DNA of 64,000 nt from Thermanaerosceptrum fracticalcis (lineage in GTDB: Bacteria; Bacillota; Peptococcia; DRI-13), in contig NZ_CP045798.1 of assembly GCF_000746025.2 (NCBI RefSeq), forward strand, positions 3,517,501 through 3,581,500. Direction: 5' to 3'. The notes beneath the pieces were generated by a model. That model searched no databases. It saw only the letters and a program-made list of their open reading frames with translations, and was not told the DNA's origin. Each line of letters opens with the position of its first letter. Position 1 is the stretch's first letter. This document shows, in pieces, positions 796-48,274 of the stretch. The translations under genes and the position numbers were made by a program.

Positions 796-872
796 TCCAT
801 TTTGTCGCAAGAGAAGGAATATTTAGATTGTTGTGGAATATTTCTATACAGCTTGCAACGGAGGTAAATGGG

Positions 873-1460
873 ATGAGAATATCAGATTTGAACATACTGA
901 AAGGTCCATTCCTTAGCTTGAATCTTTCTTTTAGGCAAATAATACAGGTGTTTTCCCAGTACTCATTTTCTGCCTTACCCGTTATGGACGGGGAAGGGAA
1001 ATATGTGGGAATTATAAAGGCTCAGGATATTTTTGCTCACTTAGAGAAGCTTTCGTATGAATCGTCCATCAATCAACTCTGCCTTCCTAATGAGCCTGTG
1101 AAAGAAAATGATAAAGTATTCCAAGTGCTTGAACAGGACCATTTTGATATAATACCCGTTGTGAACGACAGTAAGATGTTAGTAGGGTTGATTACGAAAA
1201 CAGACCTGATCGACTCTGCCTTAATGTGGTATAAAACAACGGCAGAAAAATACAGCCAGGTAGTGGCTTCTTCGTATAACGGCATTATTGCCATAGACAC
1301 GGAAGGGAAAATATTTGTTTTTAATCCTGCGGCAGAAAGAATTTTAGAACGTGAGGCAAAGCAGTACCTGGGTAAACATATTTCGGAGCTGGACCCGGCT
1401 AACGGGGCCTCATCGAGACACTGGCAAAGGGAAGCGTTTCCATTGGCGTTAAGATCGTAA
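873..1460 (+). CDS. Sigma-54 activator, N-terminal part (CBS pair and first PAS), cut by a frameshift
   Basis: This is the first half of a sensor-activator whose second half continues at 1517-3010 in another frame. The start is the ATG at 873, which has GGAGG eight bases upstream. An upstream TTG in frame would add 15 residues but has no such site. Residues ~8-115 resemble two CBS motifs (FSALPVMDGEGKYVGII and DIIPVVNDSKMLVGLI), which usually sense nucleotides or related ligands. A PAS domain starts at ~130 (SYNGIIAIDTEGKIFVFNPAAERIL). After ELDPANG the frame diverges into unrelated residues and stops at 1460. The -1 frame immediately continues the PAS fold as LIETLAKG. One extra G in the GGGG run at 1404-1407 would restore a ~712-residue protein. 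Confidence 0.7.
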   Translation: MRISDLNILKGPFLSLNLSFRQIIQVFSQYSFSALPVMDGEGKYVGIIKAQDIFAHLEKLSYESSINQLCLPNEPVKENDKVFQVLEQDHFDIIPVVNDSKMLVGLITKTDLIDSALMWYKTTAEKYSQVVASSYNGIIAIDTEGKIFVFNPAAERILEREAKQYLGKHISELDPANGASSRHWQREAFPLALRS

Positions 1461-1516
1461 TAAATGGGAAGACAATTCTTTCCAACCGCTCGCCTCTCGT
1501 CTATAATGGGCAGGTT

Positions 1517-3010
1517 GTGGGTGCTATGGGTGTATTCCTCGATATATCCACCCTGGAGTCTGTCATAGAGGAATTAAATAAACATAAGGCTCTTGTCCGC
1601 AAACTTAATGCCATTATTGAATCTTCCTATGACGGTTTATATATCTGTGATAAAAATGGGATTGTTACTAATGTAAATACAGCCTGGGAACGTATCTGCG
1701 GTGTTTCCCGTGAGTATGTTGTCGGCAAAAGCGCCTATAACCTGGTAGCTGAGGGACTTTACAACAAATCGGCTGCTACGAAGGCTCTGGAAACAAAAAA
1801 GACATGTACGGTTATGCTGGAAATGACTTCAGGGCCCAAAGCCAGCCAAAAAATTATGGCCACCAGCACTCCGGTATTCGATGAGAAGGGTGAGATCGAG
1901 CAGGTGGTAGTAAACGTTCGTGATATTACCGAACTTGAAAATCTAAAGAAACAACTGGATGACATAAGGCATTATGCTTCAGAACTTCAGGAGATGCAGA
2001 TACAACAATTACAAATGGATGACCTGGTTGCCCAGAGTCCTGCCATGCAAAGGGTTTTGGAACTGGTGGCCAGGGTATCAAGAGTAGAATCAACGGTTCT
2101 TATTACCGGAGAATCAGGGGTAGGGAAAGAGGTTATCGCGAAAAAGATACATCTTTTAAGTAAAAGAAAAAACAAGCCCCTAATAAAAATTAACTGTGGC
2201 GCAATTCCGGAAAACCTCCTGGAGTCTGAACTCTTTGGTTATGAAGGAGGTGCTTTTACCGGGGCGAAAAAAGAAGGAAAACCCGGTATGTTTGAATTGG
2301 CCTCAGAGGGAACACTCTTTTTGGACGAGATTGGAGAACTGCCTTTAAACCTGCAGGTAAAGTTGTTAAGGGCTATTCAAGAGAAGGAAATTATCAGGGT
2401 AGGTGGTTTAAAGGCTATACCTGTGGATGTCCGCATAATTGCAGCTACTAATAAAGATTTGGCGTCTATGGTAAGAAAAGGGACGTTCCGCGAGGACCTG
2501 TTCTATCGCTTGAATGTAGTCAATATCAATATCCCTCCTTTGCGGCAGCGCCGGGAGGATATTGTTCCCCTTTTATTTAAGGTGTTGAAAAAGTTCAATG
2601 AAAAATACGGTTTGGACAAAAAGCTCACCGGACCTGTTGTGGAAAGACTCCTGCAGTACGATTGGCCCGGGAACGTACGGGAACTTGAGAATCTCGTAGA
2701 ACGCTTAGTGGTCCTGGTCAATGAACCCCATGTTCAAGTAATGCACCTGCCTGAGTTTTTACAGGAAAACAGAGCTAAGTCTAAAGCTATAACAGTAAAT
2801 GGGATAGTACCTTTAAAAACAGCAATTGAGGATGTGGAAGCCCAGTTAATTGAACACGCCCTAAAAGAACACAGGACGACCCGCAAGGTTGCCCAGCTTC
2901 TTGAGGTAAACCAATCAACCATCGTCAGAAAAATAAAATATTATAATATCTGTCGAGAAGATGCACAGGAGAATCAAAATGAAGTCTGGGTGCATCAGAT
3001 AAGAATATAA
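1517..3010 (+). CDS. Sigma-54-dependent transcriptional activator (PAS, AAA+, Fis HTH), C-terminal part
   Basis: Second half of the frameshifted activator. The GTG at 1517 is only the first start-like codon; the frame is open and PAS-like from about 1403. Domains in order are the end of the first PAS, a second PAS at ~25-140 (IESSYDGLYICDKNGIVTNVNTAW), a short coiled linker, and the AAA+ domain at ~165-400. That domain has Walker A GESGVGKE, the sigma-54 contact loop GAFTGA, Walker B LFLDEIGEL and an arginine-finger region FREDLFYRLNV. The C-terminal helix-turn-helix is VAQLLEVNQSTIVRKI. Such proteins open sigma-54 promoters using ATP. The adjacent -24/-12 promoter at 3124-3140 makes the gene at 3201 the likely target. 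If the frameshift is real, this part could still act as an unregulated fragment if translated. Confidence 0.85.
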   Translation: MGAMGVFLDISTLESVIEELNKHKALVRKLNAIIESSYDGLYICDKNGIVTNVNTAWERICGVSREYVVGKSAYNLVAEGLYNKSAATKALETKKTCTVMLEMTSGPKASQKIMATSTPVFDEKGEIEQVVVNVRDITELENLKKQLDDIRHYASELQEMQIQQLQMDDLVAQSPAMQRVLELVARVSRVESTVLITGESGVGKEVIAKKIHLLSKRKNKPLIKINCGAIPENLLESELFGYEGGAFTGAKKEGKPGMFELASEGTLFLDEIGELPLNLQVKLLRAIQEKEIIRVGGLKAIPVDVRIIAATNKDLASMVRKGTFREDLFYRLNVVNINIPPLRQRREDIVPLLFKVLKKFNEKYGLDKKLTGPVVERLLQYDWPGNVRELENLVERLVVLVNEPHVQVMHLPEFLQENRAKSKAITVNGIVPLKTAIEDVEAQLIEHALKEHRTTRKVAQLLEVNQSTIVRKIKYYNICREDAQENQNEVWVHQIRI

Positions 3011-3041: not shown

Positions 3042-3075
3042 AAACTGATGCGAACACGCATCAGTTTTAATTTTG
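3042..3075 (+). terminator. Intrinsic terminator after the sigma-54 activator
   Basis: A perfect 11-bp stem (AAACTGATGCG at 3042-3052 and CGCATCAGTTT at 3057-3067) closes a four-base AACA loop and runs into a U-rich tract. It sits 32 bases after the activator stop codon and separates the activator transcript from the sigma-54 promoter downstream. The dyad could double as an activator-binding site, but the U tract favours termination. Confidence 0.75.
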
Positions 3076-3123: not shown

Positions 3124-3140
3124 TTGGCATATAAATTGCA
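3124..3140 (+). promoter_or_regulatory. Sigma-54 (-24/-12) promoter
   Basis: The sequence TTGGCATATAAATTGCA carries GG at 3126-3127 and GC at 3138-3139, separated by exactly ten bases, matching the consensus TGGCAC-N5-TTGC. It lies about 60 bases upstream of the gene at 3201 and directly downstream of a sigma-54 activator gene. Between the terminator and this promoter, the partly dyadic TCTCACA...TGTGGGAATGAGA (about 3079-3107) could be part of an activator site. Confidence 0.8.
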
Positions 3141-3200
3141 TTGATAATCAGTAGAGTAAATACAATTATATTTTAATTATTAGTAAGGAGGAAATTTAGT

Positions 3201-4664
3201 ATGACCTTAAAAACAGGTGAACAGTACAAAGAAAGCCTCAGAAAAATGAGACCCAACATCTACAAGTTTGGTGAACTTATTGAGGATGTAACTTCCCATC
3301 CCGCTACAAGACTCCACGTTGAATCTGTTGCTCATTCCTATGATATGGCCTTTGACGAGAAAAAAGCTCCCATTTATACAACTACTTCTTTCTTAACGGG
3401 CAAAAAAGCCCACCGCTGGAATACTCTGATGACCAGCGTGGAAGATCTTGTTGGTAATTCTGAAATGAAACGTGACCAGTACCGCTGGTCCGGTACTTGT
3501 CAGGGGGCTACTTGTGCCGGCTGGACGATCCTCACTGCCCTTTGGGATGCGACCTATAAGTGTGACAAGGAAAACGGCACCAACTACCATGAAAGACTAA
3601 AAAATTATATGCTGCATGTGGAAGAAAACGCCCTGGCCCTGTCGGGTGCCATTACAGATGCTAAAGGGAACCGTGCTCTGAAGCCTTCCCAGCAGCCCAA
3701 CCCCGACCATTACCTGCGCATCAAGGAAAGGCGTTCTGACGGTGTAGTAATCAACGGCTACAAAATCCAAATCTGCGGTGTGGCGGCATGTAACGAAATC
3801 GTCTTTATTCCCACCAGCGGTTTCGGCGCTGAAGATGCAGATTACTGTGTAGCTGGAGCTGTACCCCGCGATGCACAGGGCATAACTATCGTGGAAACCC
3901 GCCGCCCCAGTGACGAAAGGGATCTGGAAGAAGGCTGGGATGCTCCTAAAGTTGGCAACATCACCCAGGCTTTTATCATCTTCGAAGACGTATTTGTACC
4001 CAATGAGCGTATTTTCCTGGCCGGTGAATTCAAGTACACAGGCAAGATTATCGGCGATTTTGCCGCCATTTACCGGGCCGCTATCGGCGCCTGTGTTGCC
4101 GGACAGGGAGATGTCATGATTGGTGCTGCCATCAATATGGCCCGTGCCAACGGCTTGTCGCAAAAAGTCTTCCAGGATAAACTCAACGAAATGGCTATCA
4201 ACAATGAAATTACTTACGGTCTGGGACTGGGCGCTATGCTGAAAGGCAAGAAGACTGAATCCGGGACATTCATTCCCAACCCGCTCCTTGCCCATACCAA
4301 TAAGACCCAGGTAGCCAGGCTGCCCTATCAAACAAAAGTAATGTGCCAGGATATCAGCGGCGGTATTGCCGAAACCGGTTGTATGCCTCCCTATGTAGAC
4401 TTCCGGCATCCCGAATACGGTAAAAAGCTTCTTGAATCCCTGGCCGCCGGTACCGACGGTGAAACCCGCGCCCGTGCCGCCCGCTTAGTGGAGTGGCTCA
4501 CTGTTGGCGGCGGTATCCCCGGTTGTATGCACGGCGGCGGGTCTCCCGACGGTGCCAAGTTAGTGGTAAAAGCCATGACGCCTTGGGAGGAATTTGCTAA
4601 AGAAGCCAAGAGGATTGCCGGTATTACGGCAGAATTAGCTGAGCCCGCTGCTCCCAAGAAATAA
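3201..4664 (+). CDS. 4-hydroxybutyryl-CoA dehydratase / HpaB-family protein with altered active site
   Basis: A 487-residue member of the HpaB/4-hydroxybutyryl-CoA dehydratase flavoprotein superfamily (acyl-CoA dehydrogenase-like fold). It aligns end to end with the protein encoded at 22014-23471, sharing NYHERL, TDAKGNR..PSQQ and FEDVFVPNERIF. The family's cluster and catalytic residues differ. The first pair is C100-x4-C105 instead of Cys-x3-Cys. The His ligand is Tyr291, the catalytic Tyr is Ile295, and the Lys is Val299; only C298 is kept. Extra cysteines are present (C192, C197). It is therefore unlikely to be a standard 4-hydroxybutyryl-CoA dehydratase; the reaction is unknown. The ATG has AAGGAGG upstream and is preceded by a sigma-54 promoter. 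Another HpaB-type flavoenzyme role is possible. Confidence 0.8.
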   Translation: MTLKTGEQYKESLRKMRPNIYKFGELIEDVTSHPATRLHVESVAHSYDMAFDEKKAPIYTTTSFLTGKKAHRWNTLMTSVEDLVGNSEMKRDQYRWSGTCQGATCAGWTILTALWDATYKCDKENGTNYHERLKNYMLHVEENALALSGAITDAKGNRALKPSQQPNPDHYLRIKERRSDGVVINGYKIQICGVAACNEIVFIPTSGFGAEDADYCVAGAVPRDAQGITIVETRRPSDERDLEEGWDAPKVGNITQAFIIFEDVFVPNERIFLAGEFKYTGKIIGDFAAIYRAAIGACVAGQGDVMIGAAINMARANGLSQKVFQDKLNEMAINNEITYGLGLGAMLKGKKTESGTFIPNPLLAHTNKTQVARLPYQTKVMCQDISGGIAETGCMPPYVDFRHPEYGKKLLESLAAGTDGETRARAARLVEWLTVGGGIPGCMHGGGSPDGAKLVVKAMTPWEEFAKEAKRIAGITAELAEPAAPKK

Positions 4665-18653: not shown

Positions 18654-19415
18654 ATGACGAAAAAAATCCCGTATCAAGTTCCCGCAGTGGATAGGACCCT
18701 GGACATCCTGGAATACCTCAGTAAAAACCAGCAGGCTTCGTTGACTCAGATTTATCAAGACCTGGACCTGGCTAAAAGTACTACTTACGGTATTCTTTTA
18801 ACCCTGGAAAACCGCGGCTACATTCGTAAAGATGTCTCCGGGCGCTTCCAGCTTGGCCTAAAACTGTATGAGCTGGGTACCATGGCCCTGGGGCATGTTG
18901 ACTTTGTTAAAGAAGCTTTACCCATTATGGAAGACCTGGCAAAAAAAACAGGACTTACCTGTAATCTGGGTGTTCTGGAAGGAGATGCCGGTGTATATAT
19001 TGAAAAAGTGGATGCGCCAAGCCCTATCCGGCTTAATTCCTGGAAAGGGAAGAGATTGGCTCTGCACTGCACAGCCCTGGGTAAGGTTCTCTTAGCCTAT
19101 AAAAGTCTTCCCGAGATTGTGGATGCTCTGGAAAGAATACCGCTGGCTGCCAATACTGAACATACCATAACCGATAAAGAAACACTCCTCAATGAACTGC
19201 TGCAGGTAAGACGCAAAGGTTATGCTCTGGATAATCAGGAGAATGAGGAGGATATTACCTGTATTGCAGCGCCGATTTTTGACCACGCGGGTAAGACTGT
19301 AGCGGCTGTCAGTCTCTCAGGTTTAACCACCTGGATGACTCCTGAAAAAATCAGTGGCTTAACGGAAATTCTTATTCCAGCCTGTGAAGCTATTTCCAAG
19401 CGCATCGGCGGTTAA
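18654..19415 (+). CDS. IclR-family transcriptional regulator
   Basis: A 253-residue regulator. The N-terminal winged helix (~10-75) includes LDILEYLSKNQQASLTQIYQDLDLAKSTTYGIL. The IclR effector domain (~85-250) contains GLTCNLGVLEGDAGVYIEKVD, LHCTALGKVLLA and the C-terminal CIAAPIFDHAGKTVAAVSLSG. Such proteins bind small carboxylates and repress or activate nearby catabolic genes. It lies 128 bases upstream of iorA on the same strand and is the probable regulator of the 19.5-28.0 kb operon. The ATG is preceded by TAGGAG. Confidence 0.92.
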   Translation: MTKKIPYQVPAVDRTLDILEYLSKNQQASLTQIYQDLDLAKSTTYGILLTLENRGYIRKDVSGRFQLGLKLYELGTMALGHVDFVKEALPIMEDLAKKTGLTCNLGVLEGDAGVYIEKVDAPSPIRLNSWKGKRLALHCTALGKVLLAYKSLPEIVDALERIPLAANTEHTITDKETLLNELLQVRRKGYALDNQENEEDITCIAAPIFDHAGKTVAAVSLSGLTTWMTPEKISGLTEILIPACEAISKRIGG

Positions 19416-19460
19416 AGAAAACCCGGGTTGGTGGAAAAAAATTTATAAACCTTGTCTTGG

Positions 19461-19484
19461 AGATACGGTCTTTTAGACGTATCT
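19461..19484 (+). promoter_or_regulatory. Inverted repeat overlapping the iorA promoter, candidate IclR operator
   Basis: AGATAC and GTATCT arms with inner GTC/GAC pairs form a 24-base dyad. It overlaps the -35 position expected for the TATAAT at 19499-19504. A weak attenuator for the iclR transcript is the alternative reading. Confidence 0.4.
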
Positions 19485-19543
19485 TTCCATATAGTCATTA
19501 TAATAAACAGAAGTTTTATCTACAAAACGAAAGGAGTTGTCTC

Positions 19544-21361
19544 ATGTCTACGAAGGAATTTGTGATGGGGAACGAGGCTATAGCTTTGGCGGCGAAAGAA
19601 GCTGGGGTCTCCGTGGTGGCAGGTTACCCCGGAACTCCTGCTTCCGAAATCATCGATGCCAGTTTAAGTCATGGTATCTACGCCGAATGGTCAACCAACG
19701 AAAAACATGCTTTTGAGGTGGCAACAGGTGCATCCTTATGCAATCAACGGGCTATGGCCGTTATGAAGCATAATGGGACCAACGTGGTCACTGACTTTCT
19801 GATGCATGTTAACTTTACGGGTGTTAGAGGCGGCTTGGTGCTAATTTCAGCTGACGACCCGGGAGGAAACTCCTCACAGAACGAAGAAGATACACGTATC
19901 TTGATTCACAACTATGCCCATTTGCCCGTTTTTGATCCTTCTTCTATCCAGGAAGCTAAAGAAATGACCAAAAAAGCTTTCGAACTTTCCGAACAGACGG
20001 AATTAGTATTTGCCCTGCGTCCCGTGATGCGGATCTGTCATGCCCGGGGTATTGTGGAAAAAGAAGATGTTACATACCAAAAGAAACCGGTGGAGTTTAA
20101 GAATGACAGAAGCCGCTTTGTAATGTCTGCCGTGGTAGAAAAAGAACATGGCGGAGTTTTACGCCCCATCATTCGTCACCGCTGGCTGAATCAAAAACAA
20201 AATGAACTGAAAGAGATTATGGAAAACCTGCCCTTTAATCACATTGAAAAAGCCGATGGTGAAGTGGGTTACGTCGGCTGCGGTATTGGCTACAGCTATT
20301 TGAAGGAAGCGGAAAGTATTTTGGATAAAAAGCTGCCTGTTTTGAAACTCACCACACTTCCTTTACCCGAGAAAAAGGTTATAGAATTTGTTTCTAATTA
20401 TAAGAAGATTGTTATATTCGAAGAACTGGAGCCTGTTGTGGAAAACCTCATCAAGGGAATCTGTTATGACAAAGGCATTCAAGTGGAAATCTTAGGCAGG
20501 AAGACCTTCTTACCTGCAGAAGGAGAGCTCTCAACAGGTTTAATTCTGAAAGCTATTGAGAGTGCGGAAGCCAACAAAGCAATGCCTAAGGAAGCCCAGA
20601 GCACTTATATTCCGGCCCGTGTTAGAACCCAATGTGTAGGCTGCAGCCACCGCGGTTTACTCTATGCCTTAAAGTCGGTTGTACGCAGGACTGGCGCTGT
20701 GGTAACAGGCGATATTGGTTGTCACGATGCCGGAAGTTTCCAACCCATGAACCTTCAGTCTACTATTTACTGTATGGGTTCTTCTATCCCCATGGCTTAC
20801 GGGATAAAAGCAGGTGGATACGAGAAACCAGTTATAGCCATGATCGGTGACTCTACCTTCTTCCATAATGGCTTAACGGGTTTGGCCAGCGCTATTTTCA
20901 ATAAAGCTAATATCACAGTTATTATTGCCGATAACTCTACCACTGCCATGACCGGTTTCCAACCTCACCCCGGCAGCGAAACTAATGTCAGAGGCGAACA
21001 ATTCCAGGCCATTGATCCTGCCTCTGTAGCAGCAGTTATGGGGGCCAAAACCTATATATGTAATCCCTATAACGTAGAAGAAACTAAGAAGCTATTAGCT
21101 GAGGTAGTAAAAGAAGAAGGGGTTAAAGTTGTCATAGCCCGTGCGTTGTGTTACCTCAAGTTCTCCCGGGAAGGCAGAGTATCCTTTGAAGCGAGAAAAG
21201 TAACTGTTGACCATGAGGTATGTAACGGTTGTAAGATTTGTGTTTCCGATTTTGGCTGTCCTGCTATTACCATCGTTGACGGTAAGGCCAGGATCGACCA
21301 GGATAGTTGTAATGGTTGCGGAGTCTGCGTATCTGTATGTGCGAGGGGGGCAATGAAATAA
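19544..21361 (+). CDS. iorA: Indolepyruvate ferredoxin oxidoreductase, alpha subunit
   Basis: A 605-residue thiamine-pyrophosphate enzyme subunit. The N-terminal pyrimidine-binding domain has VVAGYPGTPASEI. The C-terminal TPP domain has VTGDIGCHDAG, MIGDSTFFHNGLTGL and NSTTAMTGFQPHPG. Two 4Fe-4S sites close the protein (CNGCKIC...GCP and CNGCGVCVSVC). The enzyme decarboxylates aryl-2-oxoacids to acyl-CoA and reduces ferredoxin. The ATG at 19544 has AAAGGAG upstream; an in-frame extension further upstream lacks a site. It overlaps iorB by one base. Confidence 0.94.
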   Translation: MSTKEFVMGNEAIALAAKEAGVSVVAGYPGTPASEIIDASLSHGIYAEWSTNEKHAFEVATGASLCNQRAMAVMKHNGTNVVTDFLMHVNFTGVRGGLVLISADDPGGNSSQNEEDTRILIHNYAHLPVFDPSSIQEAKEMTKKAFELSEQTELVFALRPVMRICHARGIVEKEDVTYQKKPVEFKNDRSRFVMSAVVEKEHGGVLRPIIRHRWLNQKQNELKEIMENLPFNHIEKADGEVGYVGCGIGYSYLKEAESILDKKLPVLKLTTLPLPEKKVIEFVSNYKKIVIFEELEPVVENLIKGICYDKGIQVEILGRKTFLPAEGELSTGLILKAIESAEANKAMPKEAQSTYIPARVRTQCVGCSHRGLLYALKSVVRRTGAVVTGDIGCHDAGSFQPMNLQSTIYCMGSSIPMAYGIKAGGYEKPVIAMIGDSTFFHNGLTGLASAIFNKANITVIIADNSTTAMTGFQPHPGSETNVRGEQFQAIDPASVAAVMGAKTYICNPYNVEETKKLLAEVVKEEGVKVVIARALCYLKFSREGRVSFEARKVTVDHEVCNGCKICVSDFGCPAITIVDGKARIDQDSCNGCGVCVSVCARGAMK

Positions 21362-21945
21362 TGAAGCTTGATATTGTAATTGCTGGTGTAGGCGGACAAG
21401 GAAACATTCTGGCCTCTGAAGTTTTGGCCCAGTGTGCCATGGATAAGGGGTACAACGTACTGAGTACTGAAACGAAAGGTGCGGCCCAAAGGGGAGGCTC
21501 TGTAGTATCCCACCTGAGGATTTCCGACAGTGATATTTATGCTCCCCTGGTTCCTGTTGGTCAGGCCGATATCCTGCTGGGTTTTGAACCCCTGGAAGCC
21601 ATGCGTAATGCCAAACTCTTAAACAGTAAAGGCAAGTTTATTATTAACCAAGAACCCGTACAGACTGTTCTCAGCAACATGGGAGCCGATGTTTATCCTC
21701 CCTTAAGTGAACTGGAAGCAGCGGTGAAAGCGGTATGTCCCCACGGCTATTTTGTTAACGCAACCCAGGCGGCTAAAGAGTTGGGGTCTACCTTACTTAC
21801 TAACGTCATTATGTTGGGAGCTTTCAGTAAGGTAACGGATATCTTTACACCTGAGGTGATTTTGGCCAAACTGCTGAGCCTTGTGAACGAAAAATTCCAC
21901 GAAGATGACAAGGCAGCATTTGCAGCTGGGCAAAAACTAGTCTAA
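21361..21945 (+). CDS. iorB: Indolepyruvate ferredoxin oxidoreductase, beta subunit
   Basis: A 194-residue subunit of the 2-oxoacid:ferredoxin oxidoreductase gamma-type fold. It opens IVIAGVGGQGNILASEVLAQ and continues ETKGAAQRGGSVVSHLRIS, the family hallmark. The start overlaps the iorA stop (TAATG), so subunits are made together. It forms the IorAB complex for arylpyruvate oxidation. In this operon it could supply acyl-CoA plus reduced ferredoxin to the downstream enzymes. Confidence 0.94.
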   Translation: MKLDIVIAGVGGQGNILASEVLAQCAMDKGYNVLSTETKGAAQRGGSVVSHLRISDSDIYAPLVPVGQADILLGFEPLEAMRNAKLLNSKGKFIINQEPVQTVLSNMGADVYPPLSELEAAVKAVCPHGYFVNATQAAKELGSTLLTNVIMLGAFSKVTDIFTPEVILAKLLSLVNEKFHEDDKAAFAAGQKLV

Positions 21946-22013
21946 GATTTAGATTTTTGTAAGAAAAAATAAAAAAGTAGGGTTTGCCGGAATTTTAAAA
22001 AAGGAGGAATTTT

Positions 22014-23471
22014 GTGAAAACGGCGCAGGAGTATATAGACAGTATTAAGAAGCTTAAGCTCAACGCCTATGCCATGGGCAAGAAAATCGATTGTCCTGCC
22101 GAACATCCCCTGATCAGGCCTTCTCTTAATGCCGCAGCCATGACTTATGAGTTGGCCCAGGATCCCCAATACCAGGACCTGATGACGGCTGTTTCTCATC
22201 TCACGGGGAAACGCATTAACCGCTTTACCCATCTTCATCAGAGTACGGATGATCTCGTAAAAAAAGTGAAGATGCAGCGTCTCCTAGGGCAAAAGACAGG
22301 TACCTGTTTTCAGCGCTGTGTAGGCATGGATGCCATCAATGCCCTGGGCAGTACTACTTTTGAGATTGACAAGGCTATGGGTACTAATTACCATGAGAGA
22401 TTCAACAAGTTCTTATTGCACCTTCAGGAAAATGACCTGATGTGCGATGGCGCTATGACTGACCCCAAAGGTGACCGCGGCAAACGTCCCAGTGAACAGG
22501 AAGATCCCGATGTTTTCCTTCATGTCGTAGAGAAAAAAGCTGACGGCATCATTGTGCGAGGGGCCAAATGTCATCAAACAGGGGCTTTGAACTCTCACGA
22601 AATCCTGGTAATGCCTACCATGGCTATGCGCCAGGAAGATGCAGACTATGCCGTATCTTTTGCCGTGCCCACTGATACCCCAGGTATCACTTATATCCTG
22701 GGCCGCCAGGCTTCCGATACCCGCAAGATGGAAGGCGGCAGTATCGATGTGGGGAATGCCCGTTTCGGCGGTCAAGAGTGCCTGGTCGTTTTTGATAATG
22801 TCTTTGTTCCCTGGGAACGGGTCTTCATGTACAAGGAATATAAATTTGCCGGTATGCTGGTAGAACGCTTCGCTGGATATCACCGGCAGAGTTACGGCGG
22901 CTGCAAGGTAGGGGTAGGTGACGTCCTCATCGGGGCGGTGGCTAATCTTGCCGATTATCAGGGTGTGGCCAATGCCTCTCATATTAAAGACAAAATTGTG
23001 GAAATGATTCACCTCAATGAAACGCTTCACGCGTGCGGCCTGGCCTGCTCTACAGAAGGCAAACCTACTGCCTCCGGTACATACTTGATTGATTTATTGA
23101 TGGCTAACGTCTGTAAGCTGAATGTAACAAGATTCCCCTATGAAATTGCCCGGATTGCCGAAGATATTGCCGGCGGTCTCATGGTTACCCTGCCCTCTGA
23201 GCATGACTACCGTAATCCCGAGACAGCCCATTATATAGAGAAATACCTTCGGGGAATAAGCGGTTTAGCCACCGAATGCCGCCTGAGAATGCTCCGCCTG
23301 GTAGAGAACATTACCATCGGCGCTGCCGCAGTAGCTTACCGGACAGAATCCATGCATGGCGCCGGTCCCCCGCAAGCCATGAGGGTTATGATTGCCAGGC
23401 AGGCTAACCTTGATGAGAAGAAACAGTTTGCCAAGGATTTGGCCGGAGTGACTGACCTGGAAAAGAAATAG
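22014..23471 (+). CDS. abfD: 4-hydroxybutyryl-CoA dehydratase-like protein (AbfD family)
   Basis: A 485-residue [4Fe-4S]/FAD dehydratase of the AbfD family. Known cluster ligands and catalytic residues of the Clostridium enzyme are matched with a constant offset: C98-x3-C102, H290 and C297 as ligands, with Y294, K298 and T189 in the active site (motif YHRQSYGGCK). TDPKGDRGKRPSEQ is also kept. The reference reaction is 4-hydroxybutyryl-CoA to crotonyl-CoA, with vinylacetyl-CoA isomerase activity. The start is the GTG after GGAGGAATTTT. No CoA-transferase or 4-hydroxybutyrate dehydrogenase gene is nearby, so the substrate here is an inference. Confidence 0.85.
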   Translation: MKTAQEYIDSIKKLKLNAYAMGKKIDCPAEHPLIRPSLNAAAMTYELAQDPQYQDLMTAVSHLTGKRINRFTHLHQSTDDLVKKVKMQRLLGQKTGTCFQRCVGMDAINALGSTTFEIDKAMGTNYHERFNKFLLHLQENDLMCDGAMTDPKGDRGKRPSEQEDPDVFLHVVEKKADGIIVRGAKCHQTGALNSHEILVMPTMAMRQEDADYAVSFAVPTDTPGITYILGRQASDTRKMEGGSIDVGNARFGGQECLVVFDNVFVPWERVFMYKEYKFAGMLVERFAGYHRQSYGGCKVGVGDVLIGAVANLADYQGVANASHIKDKIVEMIHLNETLHACGLACSTEGKPTASGTYLIDLLMANVCKLNVTRFPYEIARIAEDIAGGLMVTLPSEHDYRNPETAHYIEKYLRGISGLATECRLRMLRLVENITIGAAAVAYRTESMHGAGPPQAMRVMIARQANLDEKKQFAKDLAGVTDLEKK

Positions 23472-23515
23472 TTTAAGCCACAAATAGTCATCAATTTTAA
23501 GGAGGTAAGAAGTTA

Positions 23516-24652
23516 ATGTATCCTTTTACTGAAGAGCAAATCCTTATCAGGAACATGGCCAAAGAATTTGCCGAGACAGTGGTAGCCCCCAGAGCTGCAG
23601 AAATTGATAAGAAGCATGAATTCCCCAGTGACATTGTGGCGCAAATGGCGGAACTCAACCTCATGGGCATTCCTTATCCCGAAGAATATGGCGGCGCTGC
23701 CGGGGACTATCTCAGCTACATTATGGTTGTAGAAGAACTGTCTAAAGCCTGTGCTTCAACAGGTATTATCCTGGCTACCCATACTTCTTTGGGAATCTGG
23801 CCTATCTATAAGTACGGTACTCCCGAGCAAAAGGAAAAGTATATTAAGCCCCTGGCTACCGGCGAAAAATTAGGAGCCTTCTGCCTTACCGAACCTAACG
23901 CCGGCACTGATGCCGCCAGTCAGCAGACAGTAGCCGTACTCGATGGGGACTACTATATTCTCAACGGTTCCAAGTGTTTTATTACCAACGGCGGTTATGC
24001 CAGCACTTACATAGTTTTTGCCATGACAGACAAGAGCAAAGGTGTCAAAGGTATCAGCGCCTTTATCGTGGAAAAGGACTTTCCCGGTTTTGCCGTAGGC
24101 CAGTTTGAAGACAAGTTGGGCATTCACGGTTCTGCAACCGCCGAAATCATTTTCAAAGATTGCAAAGTACCCAAAGAAAACCTCCTGGGTAAAGAAGGTG
24201 AAGGCTTTAAGATTGCCATGACTACCCTGGACGGAGGCAGGATTGGTGTTGCCGCCCAGGCTTTAGGTATTGCCCAGGCTGCTTATGAGGCGGCTTTGAA
24301 ATATGCCAAGGAAAGGCACCAGTTCGGCAAACCCATCAGCGCCAACCAGGCCATCCAGTTTATGCTGGCCGACATGGCTACCCAGATCCAGGCAGCCCGT
24401 CACCTGGTCTACCATGCCGCTTTCCTCAAGGGTAGTGACCAGCCTCATACTAAGGAAGCTTCCATGGCTAAATTACATGCCTCCGAAACCGCTATGCAGG
24501 TAACGATTAAAGCCGTACAGATCCATGGCGGTCACGGTTACACCACGAACTACCCCGTGGAACGCCATCTGCGGGATGCCAAGATTACCGAAATCTACGA
24601 AGGAACTTCAGAAGTGCAGCGTATGGTCATTGCCTCTAATATTTTACGGTAA
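23516..24652 (+). CDS. Acyl-CoA dehydrogenase (short-chain/butyryl-CoA type)
   Basis: A 378-residue FAD enzyme. Motifs are FCLTEPNAGTDAASQ, the flavin-binding YILNGSKCFITNGG, FGKPISANQAIQFMLADM and the C-terminal EIYEGTSEVQRMVIASNIL with the catalytic Glu. Length is standard. GGAGGTAAGA precedes the ATG. It lies between an AbfD-like dehydratase and etf/fix genes, which suggests it interconverts an enoyl-CoA and acyl-CoA using electron transfer flavoprotein. Confidence 0.93.
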   Translation: MYPFTEEQILIRNMAKEFAETVVAPRAAEIDKKHEFPSDIVAQMAELNLMGIPYPEEYGGAAGDYLSYIMVVEELSKACASTGIILATHTSLGIWPIYKYGTPEQKEKYIKPLATGEKLGAFCLTEPNAGTDAASQQTVAVLDGDYYILNGSKCFITNGGYASTYIVFAMTDKSKGVKGISAFIVEKDFPGFAVGQFEDKLGIHGSATAEIIFKDCKVPKENLLGKEGEGFKIAMTTLDGGRIGVAAQALGIAQAAYEAALKYAKERHQFGKPISANQAIQFMLADMATQIQAARHLVYHAAFLKGSDQPHTKEASMAKLHASETAMQVTIKAVQIHGGHGYTTNYPVERHLRDAKITEIYEGTSEVQRMVIASNILR

Positions 24653-24667
24653 TCAAAAGAAAAAAAG

Positions 24668-24697
24668 GTTTTCGGTCAGCCCAGGCTGGCCGAAAAC
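24668..24697 (+). promoter_or_regulatory. Strong intergenic hairpin between acd and etfB
   Basis: A 14-bp nearly perfect stem (GTTTTCGG and CAGCC arms) with a two-base loop and no U tract lies 15 bases after the acyl-CoA dehydrogenase stop. It may stabilise or process the mRNA so the two halves of the operon are expressed at different levels, or act as a weak terminator. Confidence 0.5.
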
Positions 24698-24718
24698 TTA
24701 GTTGCGGAGGAGAGGAAT

Positions 24719-25501
24719 ATGCCCAACATAATTGCCTGTTACAAATGGGTTATCGATGAAGCCGACATCAAAGTGGATGCAAAGACCCGGGAGCTCCAAT
24801 TCGACCGGGTCAACTACAAAATCAGCGAATACGACCGTAACGCCATTGAAGAAGCGGTCAAAATCTGTGAAGCTCAGGGAGGAGAGGTTATAGCCCTGAC
24901 AGCCGGTACGGAAAAAGCCAGGGCTTCCTTAAAAGATGCTCTTTCCCGGGGGCCTGCCCAGGCTATCTATGTGAATGATGAGCTTTTAGGCAATGCTGAT
25001 GCCTTTATCACCGCCCGTGTCCTGGCCAAAGCTGTGGCCAAGGTGCCTGATTATCAAATGATTATCTGCGGCGAAGGTTCCAGCGACCAGTACAACCAGC
25101 AGGTAGGCCCCCAGTTGGCCGCTCTCTTAGGAATTCCCGCCATTACCTTTGTCAACAAACTTACCGTCTTACCCGATAAAGTAGTGGCCGAGCGCAAACT
25201 GGAAGACGGCATCGAAGTGGTGGAGGCCGCTTATCCTGTCCTCGTCACCGTTCTGCCCGACATTAACAAGGCCCGTATTCCCAGCCTTAAACAGATCCTG
25301 GGCGCCAGCAAAAAACCGGTCAAGGAGATTAAACTTCCGGAACTGGTACTTACGCCAGAAGAACTCAAACCCCGTTTTAAGGTAGCCAGTACCTTAGCTT
25401 ACGTCATGGCCAGGAAACAGCAGAGAATCACCGGTGACAGCATAAACGAAATGGCAGAAAAAGCAGCGGCTGCACTAATCAAAGAAGGCGTCGTGGGTTA
25501 G
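24719..25501 (+). CDS. fixA: Electron transfer flavoprotein beta subunit (FixA-like)
   Basis: A 260-residue ETF beta subunit. It begins IIACYKWVIDEADIKVD and carries the AMP/flavin-binding region IICGEGSSDQYNQQVGPQLAALLG. The closely linked FixB, FixC and FixX homologues place it in the FixABCX type of bifurcating ETF. In that type, NADH oxidation drives ferredoxin and quinone or flavoprotein reduction. It may also accept electrons from the acyl-CoA dehydrogenase just upstream. GCGGAGGAGAGG precedes the ATG. Confidence 0.92.
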   Translation: MPNIIACYKWVIDEADIKVDAKTRELQFDRVNYKISEYDRNAIEEAVKICEAQGGEVIALTAGTEKARASLKDALSRGPAQAIYVNDELLGNADAFITARVLAKAVAKVPDYQMIICGEGSSDQYNQQVGPQLAALLGIPAITFVNKLTVLPDKVVAERKLEDGIEVVEAAYPVLVTVLPDINKARIPSLKQILGASKKPVKEIKLPELVLTPEELKPRFKVASTLAYVMARKQQRITGDSINEMAEKAAAALIKEGVVG

Positions 25502-25516
25502 GAGGGAGGAAAAGCA

Positions 25517-26452
25517 ATGAACATCTGGGTAATAGCCGAACAACAAGAACTGGCCCTGGAACTGACAGGGGCAGCCCGTACCCTTTCGGGAACAGCGGGT
25601 GAAGTTATCACCGTCCTCACGGGGACAGAAGCCCAGGCCCAAATGGCAGTAAAAAGTGGTGCCAGCAAATGTTACTACATAAATGGGGAGATGCCCTTAG
25701 AAAACTATGCTGAGTCTTTGGCCAAAGCCCTCAAAACAGCCAAACCAAGACTCATTCTCATAGGAGCTACCAGAAGAGGCAAAGACCTGGCTGCTAAAAT
25801 CGCTGCTCTCCTGGGTGTGGGTTGTGCCACCGACGGCAAAAACATAGAATTTACCGCCGAAGGCGTAAAAATAGAAAGAATGGTCTACGGAGGCTTGGCC
25901 GTCAGTACTTTGATCTCCCAGGAAGAAACCGTAATTGTCACCGTTCCTCCCAAGACCTATGAAGCTCCCGCCCAAGAGGAAAGAACAGGAGAAGTGAAAG
26001 CCTTTACCGGCCAGCCCAGTACTAAGGTAAAAGTCGTGGAAAAACGCGCTAAGCCCAAAGATGCTGTCAATATCGCTGATGCAGCCGTCGTTGTGGGTGT
26101 AGGCCGCGGTTTTGCCAAACAGGAAGACCTTAAACTGGCCGAAGACTTGGCCAAAGTCTTAGAGGGAGAACTAGGCTGCAGCCGTCCTGTAGCCGAAGAC
26201 CTCCACTGGCTGCCTGAAGACCGTTACATCGGCATCTCCGGTCAAAACATCAAACCCGGCCTTTACCTCTCCTTAGGTATTTCCGGGCAAGTCCAGCACA
26301 TCTCCGGCATCCGTGATGCCAAAATCATCTTTGCCGTAGACAAAAACGAAAATGCGCCCATCTTCCAGAATGCCGACTACTACATCGTCGGTGACCTCTA
26401 CCAGGTCGTACCCGCCCTGGAAGAAGCCTGCAAGAAGGCCCTCAACAAATAG
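25517..26452 (+). CDS. fixB: Electron transfer flavoprotein alpha subunit (FixB-like)
   Basis: A 311-residue ETF alpha subunit. The C-terminal FAD domain has VVVGVGRGFAKQEDLKLAEDLA, GCSRPVAEDLHWLP, YIGISGQNIKPGLYLSLGISGQVQH and ADYYIVGDLYQVVPAL. The N-terminal domain matches FixB in length. It starts 16 bases after fixA with GGAGGGAGG upstream. Together they form the ETF heterodimer. Confidence 0.93.
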   Translation: MNIWVIAEQQELALELTGAARTLSGTAGEVITVLTGTEAQAQMAVKSGASKCYYINGEMPLENYAESLAKALKTAKPRLILIGATRRGKDLAAKIAALLGVGCATDGKNIEFTAEGVKIERMVYGGLAVSTLISQEETVIVTVPPKTYEAPAQEERTGEVKAFTGQPSTKVKVVEKRAKPKDAVNIADAAVVVGVGRGFAKQEDLKLAEDLAKVLEGELGCSRPVAEDLHWLPEDRYIGISGQNIKPGLYLSLGISGQVQHISGIRDAKIIFAVDKNENAPIFQNADYYIVGDLYQVVPALEEACKKALNK

Positions 26453-26463
26453 GGGGATGAAAC

Positions 26464-27765
26464 ATGAGCGAAGAAAGATTTGACTGTATCATCGTGGGGG
26501 CAGGGCCGGCGGGCAGCGCCGCCGCCCTTACCCTGGCCCGGGCCGGCCTCGAAGTCCTCGTCATCGAAAGAGGCCTGCAAGCCGGCAGCAAAAACATGAC
26601 AGGAGGCAGGCTCTACGCCCACGCCCTGCAAAAAATAATCCCCAACTTCTGGGAAGAAGCACCCGTCGAAAGACGGGTTGTCAAAGAAACCATCACTATG
26701 ATCACGCCTTCCGGCAGTGTTTCCCTGGACTACAAGAGCCAGCGCTACAACCAGGAACCCTACCACTCCTTTACAGTCCTAAGAGCCCAATTCGACCAGT
26801 GGCTGGCCACTAAAGCCGAAGAAGCCGGGGCCGTCATCGCCACCGGCGTCAGAGTCGATGACCTTTTACGGGATGACCAGGGTAAAATCATTGGCGTCAT
26901 TGCCGGCGAAGACCAAATGCTGGCCAACGTCGTCATCGCCGCCGACGGAGTCAACTCCCTTTTAGCCCAGAAAGCGGGCCTAAGGGGCGAACTCAAAGAC
27001 ATTCACGTGGCCACAGGCGTCAAAGAAGTCATCGAACTGCCAAGACAAGTAATAGAGGACCGCTTCCAGCTCACAGGAGAAGAAGGGGCTGCTCAGCTCT
27101 TTGTGGGCCGGTGCACCCAAGGAATCCAGGGCGGCGGTTTCCTCTACACCAACAAAAACACCATCTCCATAGGTCTCGTCATTACCTCCGGGGCTATAGG
27201 AAAAAGCAAAATAAAAATTGCTGACTTAATCGAAGAATTCAAGACCCACCCCAACATCGCTCCTCTCGTAACCGGGGGTAAAGTCGTCGAATACTCGGCC
27301 CATTTAGTACCCGAAGGCGGCCTAAATATGCTGCCTGCCCTCTATACAGACGGGCTTTTAATCGCCGGTGATGCCGCAGGTTTAGTCTTAAACACCGGCT
27401 ACATGGTCAGGGGCATGGATTTAGCCATCTACTCCGGCATCGCTGCTGCTCAGACCGTCATCAAAGCCAAAGAAAAAGAAGACTATTCCAAAACATCCTT
27501 AAGTCATTACCAGGAACTTCTTAAAAACAGCTTTGTTATGAAAGACCTGGAGACCTACAAAAATGCCCCGGCCTTCATGGAACAGACCACCCGGATCTTC
27601 ACCACCTATCCGCAATTAGCCGACAACATCCTCTACAAACTGTTTACCGTATACGGTACTCCCGCCCAGCATCTTTTACCCATGGTCATGGGCGAACTCA
27701 AGAAGAATAATATATCCATCTTTGATTTGGTCAAAGACGGTATAAAGGGGGTCAGGGCCCTATGA
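26464..27765 (+). CDS. fixC: FixC-like flavoprotein (ETF:quinone oxidoreductase family)
   Basis: A 433-residue FAD protein. The N-terminal dinucleotide fold is CIIVGAGPAGSAAALTLARAGLEVLVIERG, and a second FAD motif is LLIAGDAAGLVLNTG. FixC resembles ETF-quinone oxidoreductase without its cluster domain; that part is the separate FixX gene, which overlaps by four bases (ATGA). It would pass electrons from FixAB to the quinone or another acceptor. An AGGGGGATG site precedes the ATG. Confidence 0.92.
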   Translation: MSEERFDCIIVGAGPAGSAAALTLARAGLEVLVIERGLQAGSKNMTGGRLYAHALQKIIPNFWEEAPVERRVVKETITMITPSGSVSLDYKSQRYNQEPYHSFTVLRAQFDQWLATKAEEAGAVIATGVRVDDLLRDDQGKIIGVIAGEDQMLANVVIAADGVNSLLAQKAGLRGELKDIHVATGVKEVIELPRQVIEDRFQLTGEEGAAQLFVGRCTQGIQGGGFLYTNKNTISIGLVITSGAIGKSKIKIADLIEEFKTHPNIAPLVTGGKVVEYSAHLVPEGGLNMLPALYTDGLLIAGDAAGLVLNTGYMVRGMDLAIYSGIAAAQTVIKAKEKEDYSKTSLSHYQELLKNSFVMKDLETYKNAPAFMEQTTRIFTTYPQLADNILYKLFTVYGTPAQHLLPMVMGELKKNNISIFDLVKDGIKGVRAL

Positions 27766-47561: not shown

Positions 47562-47591
47562 AAGACCTTTACCATAATTGGCAAAGGTCTT
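47562..47591 (-). terminator. Leader terminator within the Mn2+ riboswitch
   Basis: AAGACCTTTGCC and GGTAAAGGTCTT pair over 11-12 bases with an ATAATT-type loop, followed on the minus strand by TATTTATTT. Its 5' arm is the riboswitch's conserved GACCTTTGCC, so ligand binding would block it. Confidence 0.7.
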
Positions 47592-47672
47592 GCAAGCAAT
47601 TTTTCGTTGCCAACAAAGCCGGAGTTATACACTCGAATTGACGACTTTGTTGTAGAGCTACTCCCCTTCAAC
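47580..47672 (-). ncRNA. yybP-ykoY (Mn2+) riboswitch upstream of the P-type ATPase
   Basis: The minus strand shows the conserved start GAAGGGGAGTAGCT, a central GTCGTCA, CCGGCTTTGTTGGCAAC and the conserved end AGACCTTTGCC. These are the known yybP-ykoY blocks. The 3' end pairs alternatively with a terminator, the usual on-switch layout. It would turn on the exporter when Mn2+ is high. Confidence 0.85.
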
Positions 47673-47830: not shown

Positions 47831-48274
47831 ATGGATTTGGAGGGGGATCAGCTTGGGAACGATATAAAACATTTGAGAATTGGAGAATTGGCCCAATTAG
47901 CCGGAGTCAGTCCACGGACCATAGATTACTATACCCAGATTGGTTTGTTAGAATCTGAAAGAACACCTGGTAACCATCGGTTATACACAGAGGATTCTCT
48001 TACCACTATAAAGATTGTAAAGCGATTACAAGAACAACACTTTTCTTTGGACGAGATATGTCAGCTTTTCAAATGTAAAGATAAAAACAGCGATTTAATG
48101 GAAATTTCCGTTTCCATAAAAGAACTTCTTGATAATCTACAAAAAAAAATGGTTGAACTGTATACTGCCCGGCAAGCAACTGATGAAAATGAATTAGTAA
48201 CCAAGGAATTGGTTACTAAGGGACTTCAGGTGATACAGACTCTCATGGTGTTACTGGGAGAACATGTAGTCTAA
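47831..48274 (+). CDS. MerR-family transcriptional regulator
   Basis: A 147-residue regulator with the MerR winged helix (LRIGELAQLAGVSPRTIDYYTQIGLLESER, then HRLYTEDSL). A coiled dimerisation helix and a short C-terminus follow, with CQLFKC as the only cysteines. The ATG at 47831 lacks an upstream ribosome binding site and would have a short leader. A GGAGGGGG run lies inside the frame but has no start in frame after it. It is divergent from the Mn2+ pump and 55 bases before htpX. Confidence 0.85.
   Translation: MDLEGDQLGNDIKHLRIGELAQLAGVSPRTIDYYTQIGLLESERTPGNHRLYTEDSLTTIKIVKRLQEQHFSLDEICQLFKCKDKNSDLMEISVSIKELLDNLQKKMVELYTARQATDENELVTKELVTKGLQVIQTLMVLLGEHVV

Follow-up and report, generated by a model that had tools for sequence, protein, structure and literature searches.

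A variant clade beside 4-hydroxybutyryl-CoA dehydratase with altered cluster-ligand and catalytic residues

In 4-hydroxybutyryl-CoA dehydratase (4HBD), represented by AbfD of Clostridium aminobutyricum (1u8v), we take His292 to be an unusual histidine ligand of the [4Fe-4S] cluster and Tyr296, Lys300, Glu455, Thr190 and Glu257 to be catalytic residues; the His-ligated iron and the nearby acids are presumably what serves removal of the 4-hydroxyl. HpaB 4-hydroxyphenylacetate 3-monooxygenases share the Pfam HpaB_N and HpaB domains with the protein described here and require O2 and a flavin reductase. A different solution to elimination on a CoA thioester is the gamma-butyrobetainyl-CoA trimethylamine-lyase BbuA, an acyl-CoA dehydrogenase (ACAD)-type protein with negligible identity to 4HBD, for which trimethylamine elimination from gamma-butyrobetainyl-CoA has been shown (PMC8364193); the same paper treats a direct elimination from gamma-aminobutyryl-CoA as hypothetical.

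The window, by which we mean the whole 64-kb stretch of DNA that was analysed, carries on its forward strand an open reading frame at 3201-4664 that starts with ATG and encodes 487 amino acids. It is preceded by a ribosome-binding site (AAGGAGGA, 3185-3192, + strand) read from the sequence, and is a genuine gene. Its product matched Pfam HpaB_N (3.4e-72, 243.7 bits) and HpaB (1.5e-35, 122.7 bits), both above the gathering score, whereas NCBIfam HpaB matches were sub-threshold only; against the HpaB monooxygenase model TIGR02309 it scored 125.8 bits, below the equivalog cut-off of 480.2. Its best PDB sequence match was 6vjr (299 bits), and it is 38% identical to a second copy in the window (22014-23471) which keeps the known AbfD residues and scores 725 bits to C. 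aminobutyricum AbfD. The product of 3201-4664 is an AbfD paralogue, as a first-pass annotation of the sequence had stated.

To define the residue pattern, we compared 22 variant homologues with 26 canonical sequences. The substitutions reported in the first-pass annotation were all recovered by alignment: Tyr291 for His292, Ile295 for Tyr296 and Val299 for Lys300, with C298 kept, and one extra residue between C100 and C105 (CxxxxC instead of CxxxC). The positions equivalent to AbfD C99, C103 and C299 are Cys in all 22 variants, the first two within codons C100-C105 (CQGATC; 3498-3515, +) and the third, C298, within codons I295-V299 (4083-4097, +), where Val299 is also invariant and residue 295 is Ile or Met throughout. 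At the His292 position (codon Y291; 4071-4073, +) the variants have Tyr in 20 cases, His in one and Glu in one, so that His is missing in 21/22, and Lys300, Tyr296 and Glu455 are missing in 22/22. Glu455-Ser456 of AbfD correspond to G441-C442 (4521-4526, +; Gly in 22/22, Cys in 21/22), and Glu257 is Gln in 20/22. All five of Tyr296, Lys300, Glu455, Thr190 and Glu257 are replaced in the protein encoded at 3201-4664. A new two-residue insertion creates an ET[G/D]C motif (codons E391-T392-G393-C394; 4371-4382, +), in which Glu391 and Cys394 are present in 22/22 variants; the insertion is found in 0/26 canonical sequences. C394, C442 and the loss of Glu455 and Glu257 had been missed in the initial reading. 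Since the 22 homologues share the same pattern, the residue changes are not due to sequencing error or to drift of a single gene.

The first-pass annotation had also placed new cysteines at the site of the catalytic Thr. C192 (codon at 3774-3776, +) does lie exactly at the Thr190 position; however, only 15/22 variants have Cys there, the other seven having Ala, and C197 lacks conservation, so both were rejected as general new ligands.

Members of the variant clade were sought in related genomes, in 398 Bacillota genomes and in a GTDB contig set. The profile search left a wide gap between members (at least 631 bits) and other family proteins (at most 440 bits). The 22 members come from Bacillota and one Desulfovibrio metagenome-assembled genome, with a median pairwise identity of 58% (minimum 40%), and occurrence is patchy, congeneric species often being without the gene. 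In a maximum-likelihood tree they formed one clade with 100/100 support, separate from characterised AbfD, beside the AbfD clade and distant from two HpaB monooxygenases. The 4HBD of Nitrosopumilus maritimus (6vjr, deposited as vinylacetyl-CoA delta-isomerase), unlike the variants, has the canonical His/CxxxC/Lys/Glu pattern and falls inside the AbfD clade. The first-pass annotation would have been refuted by a phylogeny that put the protein into a characterised HpaB clade with the same residues and a known reaction; this was not the outcome, the variant clade being distinct from the AbfD, N. maritimus 4HBD and HpaB sequences used. A divergent protein (L020) was the nearest sister of the clade. 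Because proteins outside both the variant and AbfD clades, L021 among them, still carry the His and CxxxC, the simplest reading is that the variant residue state is derived. Searches of the open-access literature turned up no description of the clade, and this group of anaerobic flavin/iron-sulfur enzymes is apparently undescribed so far.

The genome from which the window derives, a single contig of 3.8 Mb, has seven HpaB-family copies (L001-L007), most of them with canonical AbfD residues. A second variant-clade copy in this genome (L041:9935-11434) is 57% identical to the product of 3201-4664 and is the sole clade member with His at the 292 position. Glu455 is missing from two proteins that have the cluster residues, L007 in this genome and L020 in genome G004, and both diverge in further ways.

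An AlphaFold2 model of the variant (mean pLDDT 92, pTM 0.90) had as its best solved fold matches the two 4HBD structures: C. aminobutyricum AbfD, with a TM score of 0.93, rmsd of 1.7 and 36% identity in the structural match, and the N. maritimus enzyme, also with a TM score of 0.93. Fold similarity to HpaB monooxygenase was lower (TM about 0.8), the cluster cysteines are absent from Thermus thermophilus HpaB in the alignment, and HpaB did not group with the variant clade. In addition to the fold, the variant shares with AbfD the three cluster cysteines, the TDxKGxR motif and a CoA-related gene context; it differs in the replaced residues, the CxxxxC spacing, the insertion and its separate clade. 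The canonical protein's model has a helix at residues 361-389; in the variant model this helix ends at 386, immediately before the ET[G/D]C loop.

The cysteine pattern bears directly on whether the iron-sulfur cluster was kept. Across the 22 members 74/479 alignment columns are invariant, and exactly four of the protein's 10 cysteines, C100, C105, C298 and C394, are invariant. As these are the only invariant Cys at 58% median identity, the [4Fe-4S] cluster is very likely retained; a [4Fe-4S] cluster held by four cysteines fits the presence of exactly four invariant ones. We infer from this conservation that Cys394 is the best candidate to replace AbfD His292 as fourth ligand. C442, nearly as conserved (21/22), counts against this model. 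Of the two outcomes offered in the first-pass annotation, a lost cluster or a new ligand set, the conservation of C100/C105/C298/C394 disfavours the former and favours the latter.

A sigma-54 (-24/-12) promoter-type site (TTGGCATATAAATTGCA, 3124-3140, +) lies just ahead of the variant gene, such sites giving 2 matches in 64 kb against 0.15 expected. Upstream of it is a gene for a PrdR-like CBS-PAS-sigma-54 activator (828-3010, +; Pfam/NCBIfam), and a terminator-like hairpin (AAACTGATGCG-AACA-CGCATCAGTTT, 3042-3068, +), read from the sequence, separates the activator from the variant gene. The activator is split into two ORFs (828-1460 and 1517-3010) by a frameshift near 1400-1430 and is a single 724-aa ORF in a relative with 95% identity (L046:10723-12897); the frameshift may be a sequencing error or a real lesion, and the split counts against our main explanation. 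The window begins with the 3' part of an aldehyde:ferredoxin oxidoreductase gene (1-795, +; Pfam AFOR_C), complete at L040:13876-15795 in the same cluster, and beyond it lie a permease and a CoA-transferase. This CoA-transferase (L040:10598-11902) has its own sigma-54 site and is closest to 4-hydroxybutyrate CoA-transferases. Further upstream in the same genome is an operon with ACAD, ScoAB, 3-hydroxybutyryl-CoA dehydrogenase (HBD), crotonase and ETF.

The second strong sigma-54-type site of the window (TTGGCAAAGGTCTTGCA, 47578-47594) is upstream of a 147-aa ORF at 47831. In the beta-oxidation-type operon, a FabD-like malonyltransferase gene (L040:2271-3251) sits between ScoB and 3-hydroxybutyryl-CoA dehydrogenase, and beside the ETF genes lies a gene for a 295-aa protein that has an MCP signalling domain (L040:6170-7057, also L042:937-1800); that this protein directs chemotaxis toward the substrate is a guess. 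An M24 gene of the operon was considered as a clue to a guanidinohydrolase and set aside, since it resembles Xaa-Pro dipeptidases more closely than creatinase.

Similar partners were found around the variant gene in relatives. In L035, L036, L037 and L042 the gene immediately upstream encodes a CoA-transferase, and in L035, L036 and L042 this pair of genes has a sigma-54-type site in front of it. PaaK-like ligases are nearby in L092, L095 and L096 and a SucCD-like ligase in L099, while ACAD/ETF genes follow the variant gene in L044, L045, L095 and L096. The genes of L044/L045 are arranged as TRAP transporter, ornithine-cyclodeaminase-family protein, 2-oxoacid:ferredoxin oxidoreductase, variant, ACAD, ETF. 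In total, a CoA-activating gene was present in 15/22 loci and ACAD and/or ETF in 11/22, several contigs being short and such genes being common in these genomes; the 7/22 loci where no CoA-activating gene was seen nearby, some on short contigs, count against our main explanation. A recurrent permease beside the variant gene, with no Pfam match, is closest to the nucleobase transporter PurT (7tak), to which the L035 orthologue scores 370 bits (L040:12125-13522, L035:7796-9163, L042:11201-12571, L092:10513-11889, L095:14026-15000). Since the transporters vary from locus to locus (PurT-like nucleobase-type permease, TRAP, MFS, BCCT, sodium symporter), no single substrate can be deduced. No flavin reductase was recognised among the annotated neighbours; two neighbours of about 185 aa (L041:11549-12100 and L043:5496-6065) were tried as candidates, neither matched HpaC, and the second is a signal peptidase I. 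In L099 (6902-8701, genome G287) the neighbours of the variant gene include a gene for an AcsV-like corrinoid-activation protein and malic-enzyme-like and SucCD-like genes.

Loss of the His and of most known catalytic residues together with gain of an invariant Cys indicates that the variant probably carries out a reaction on a CoA-bound acid different from that of AbfD. Our tentative proposal, to which we give slightly less than even chances, is that the variant is a substrate-inducible FAD/[4Fe-4S] acyl-CoA lyase with its cluster on Cys100/Cys105/Cys298/Cys394, yielding an enoyl-CoA. We infer the cluster, its ligands, the acyl-CoA substrate and the elimination chemistry. A carboxylic acid would be imported and converted to its CoA thioester by the co-regulated CoA-transferase or, in relatives, the thioester would be supplied by a CoA ligase or a 2-oxoacid:ferredoxin oxidoreductase. 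The variant enzyme would then convert the thioester to an enoyl-CoA, which would be processed by ACAD/ETF and, in its own genome, also by crotonase and 3-hydroxybutyryl-CoA dehydrogenase. We assume that the one-electron chemistry of the flavin on the thioester is retained, and Cys394 of the ET[G/D]C insertion would take the place of AbfD His292 on the cluster. Because His292, Tyr296, Lys300 and Glu455 are gone and the His ligand is seemingly exchanged for Cys, the group expelled is probably something other than a hydroxyl on the cluster iron; loss of the His-iron and acids with gain of a Cys suggests that this group can leave without help from the iron.

BbuA offers a comparison in mode of action, in that a CoA transferase feeds a flavoenzyme, which expels the leaving group at C4, but BbuA and the variant are not homologous at the family level. 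Further eliminations of this kind are candidate reactions for the variant clade. A more specific possibility, which we rate as rather unlikely, is a new enzyme class, a flavin/all-Cys [4Fe-4S] lyase that would act on a short-chain acid activated with CoA and use radical chemistry to cleave an unactivated bond in it (C-N, or C-S or another non-hydroxyl bond), with no need for oxygen, ATP, B12 or S-adenosylmethionine; an amino-acid-derived 4-substituted butyryl-CoA would fit the partners in L044/L045. If true, it would join AbfD and BbuA as another solution.

Other readings of the same data were weighed against the all-Cys lyase. It is unlikely that only C100, C105 and C298 hold the cluster, with the fourth iron open or bound by Tyr291 and the substrate binding iron directly, as in aconitase or 2-hydroxyacyl-CoA dehydratases, and with C394, E391 and C442 catalytic. 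Consistent with such an arrangement are Tyr291 in 20/22 members at the His292 position, the new and invariant Glu391, and C442 in 21/22 adjoining the Glu455 position; against it, C394 is invariant in 22/22 whereas position 291 tolerates His and Glu. Loss of all the AbfD acid/base residues with retention of the cluster cysteines, and the ETF and oxidoreductase genes nearby, could instead reflect a redox enzyme, in which an all-Cys cluster relays electrons between ferredoxin or ETF and FAD to reduce or oxidise an acyl-CoA with no redox-neutral elimination. We consider this distinctly unlikely, as the adjoining ACAD accounts for the ETF in many loci and the fold is highly similar to that of a redox-neutral lyase.

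An unchanged reaction, 4-hydroxybutyryl-CoA to crotonyl-CoA with other residues doing the same jobs, would agree with the 4-hydroxybutyrate-type CoA-transferase and the downstream C4 enzymes of the operon, but is highly improbable given the clade-wide replacement of AbfD catalytic residues and the several canonical-residue AbfD copies already in the same genome. That the protein lost its cluster and became a plain flavoenzyme is scarcely credible: the His ligand is indeed missing in 21/22 members, yet C100, C105 and C298 are invariant in 22/22 and the sole other invariant Cys is the new C394. Finally, an HpaB-type O2-dependent monooxygenase component, suggested by the shared Pfam domains and a weak TIGR02309 match (126 bits), has next to no chance, with that score far under the 480 cut-off, a tree position with AbfD rather than HpaB, a CoA context and no flavin reductase recognised among the annotated neighbours.

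As a natural clade without the AbfD His ligand and acid/base residues and with an invariant Cys, these proteins allow a direct test of the role of the histidine, and they mark a CoA-dependent catabolic step in anaerobes. Since general family models see only an HpaB-type protein, pathway predictions probably err where they call such genes 4-hydroxybutyryl-CoA dehydratase or 4-hydroxyphenylacetate hydroxylase.

The canonical AbfD copy of the window has a setting of its own, in an operon (18654-27765) with an IclR regulator, an indolepyruvate-type 2-oxoacid:ferredoxin oxidoreductase, POR gamma, ACAD, ETF and a FixC-like protein. There, 2-oxoacid oxidation feeds AbfD, the same logic as for the variant in L044/L045.
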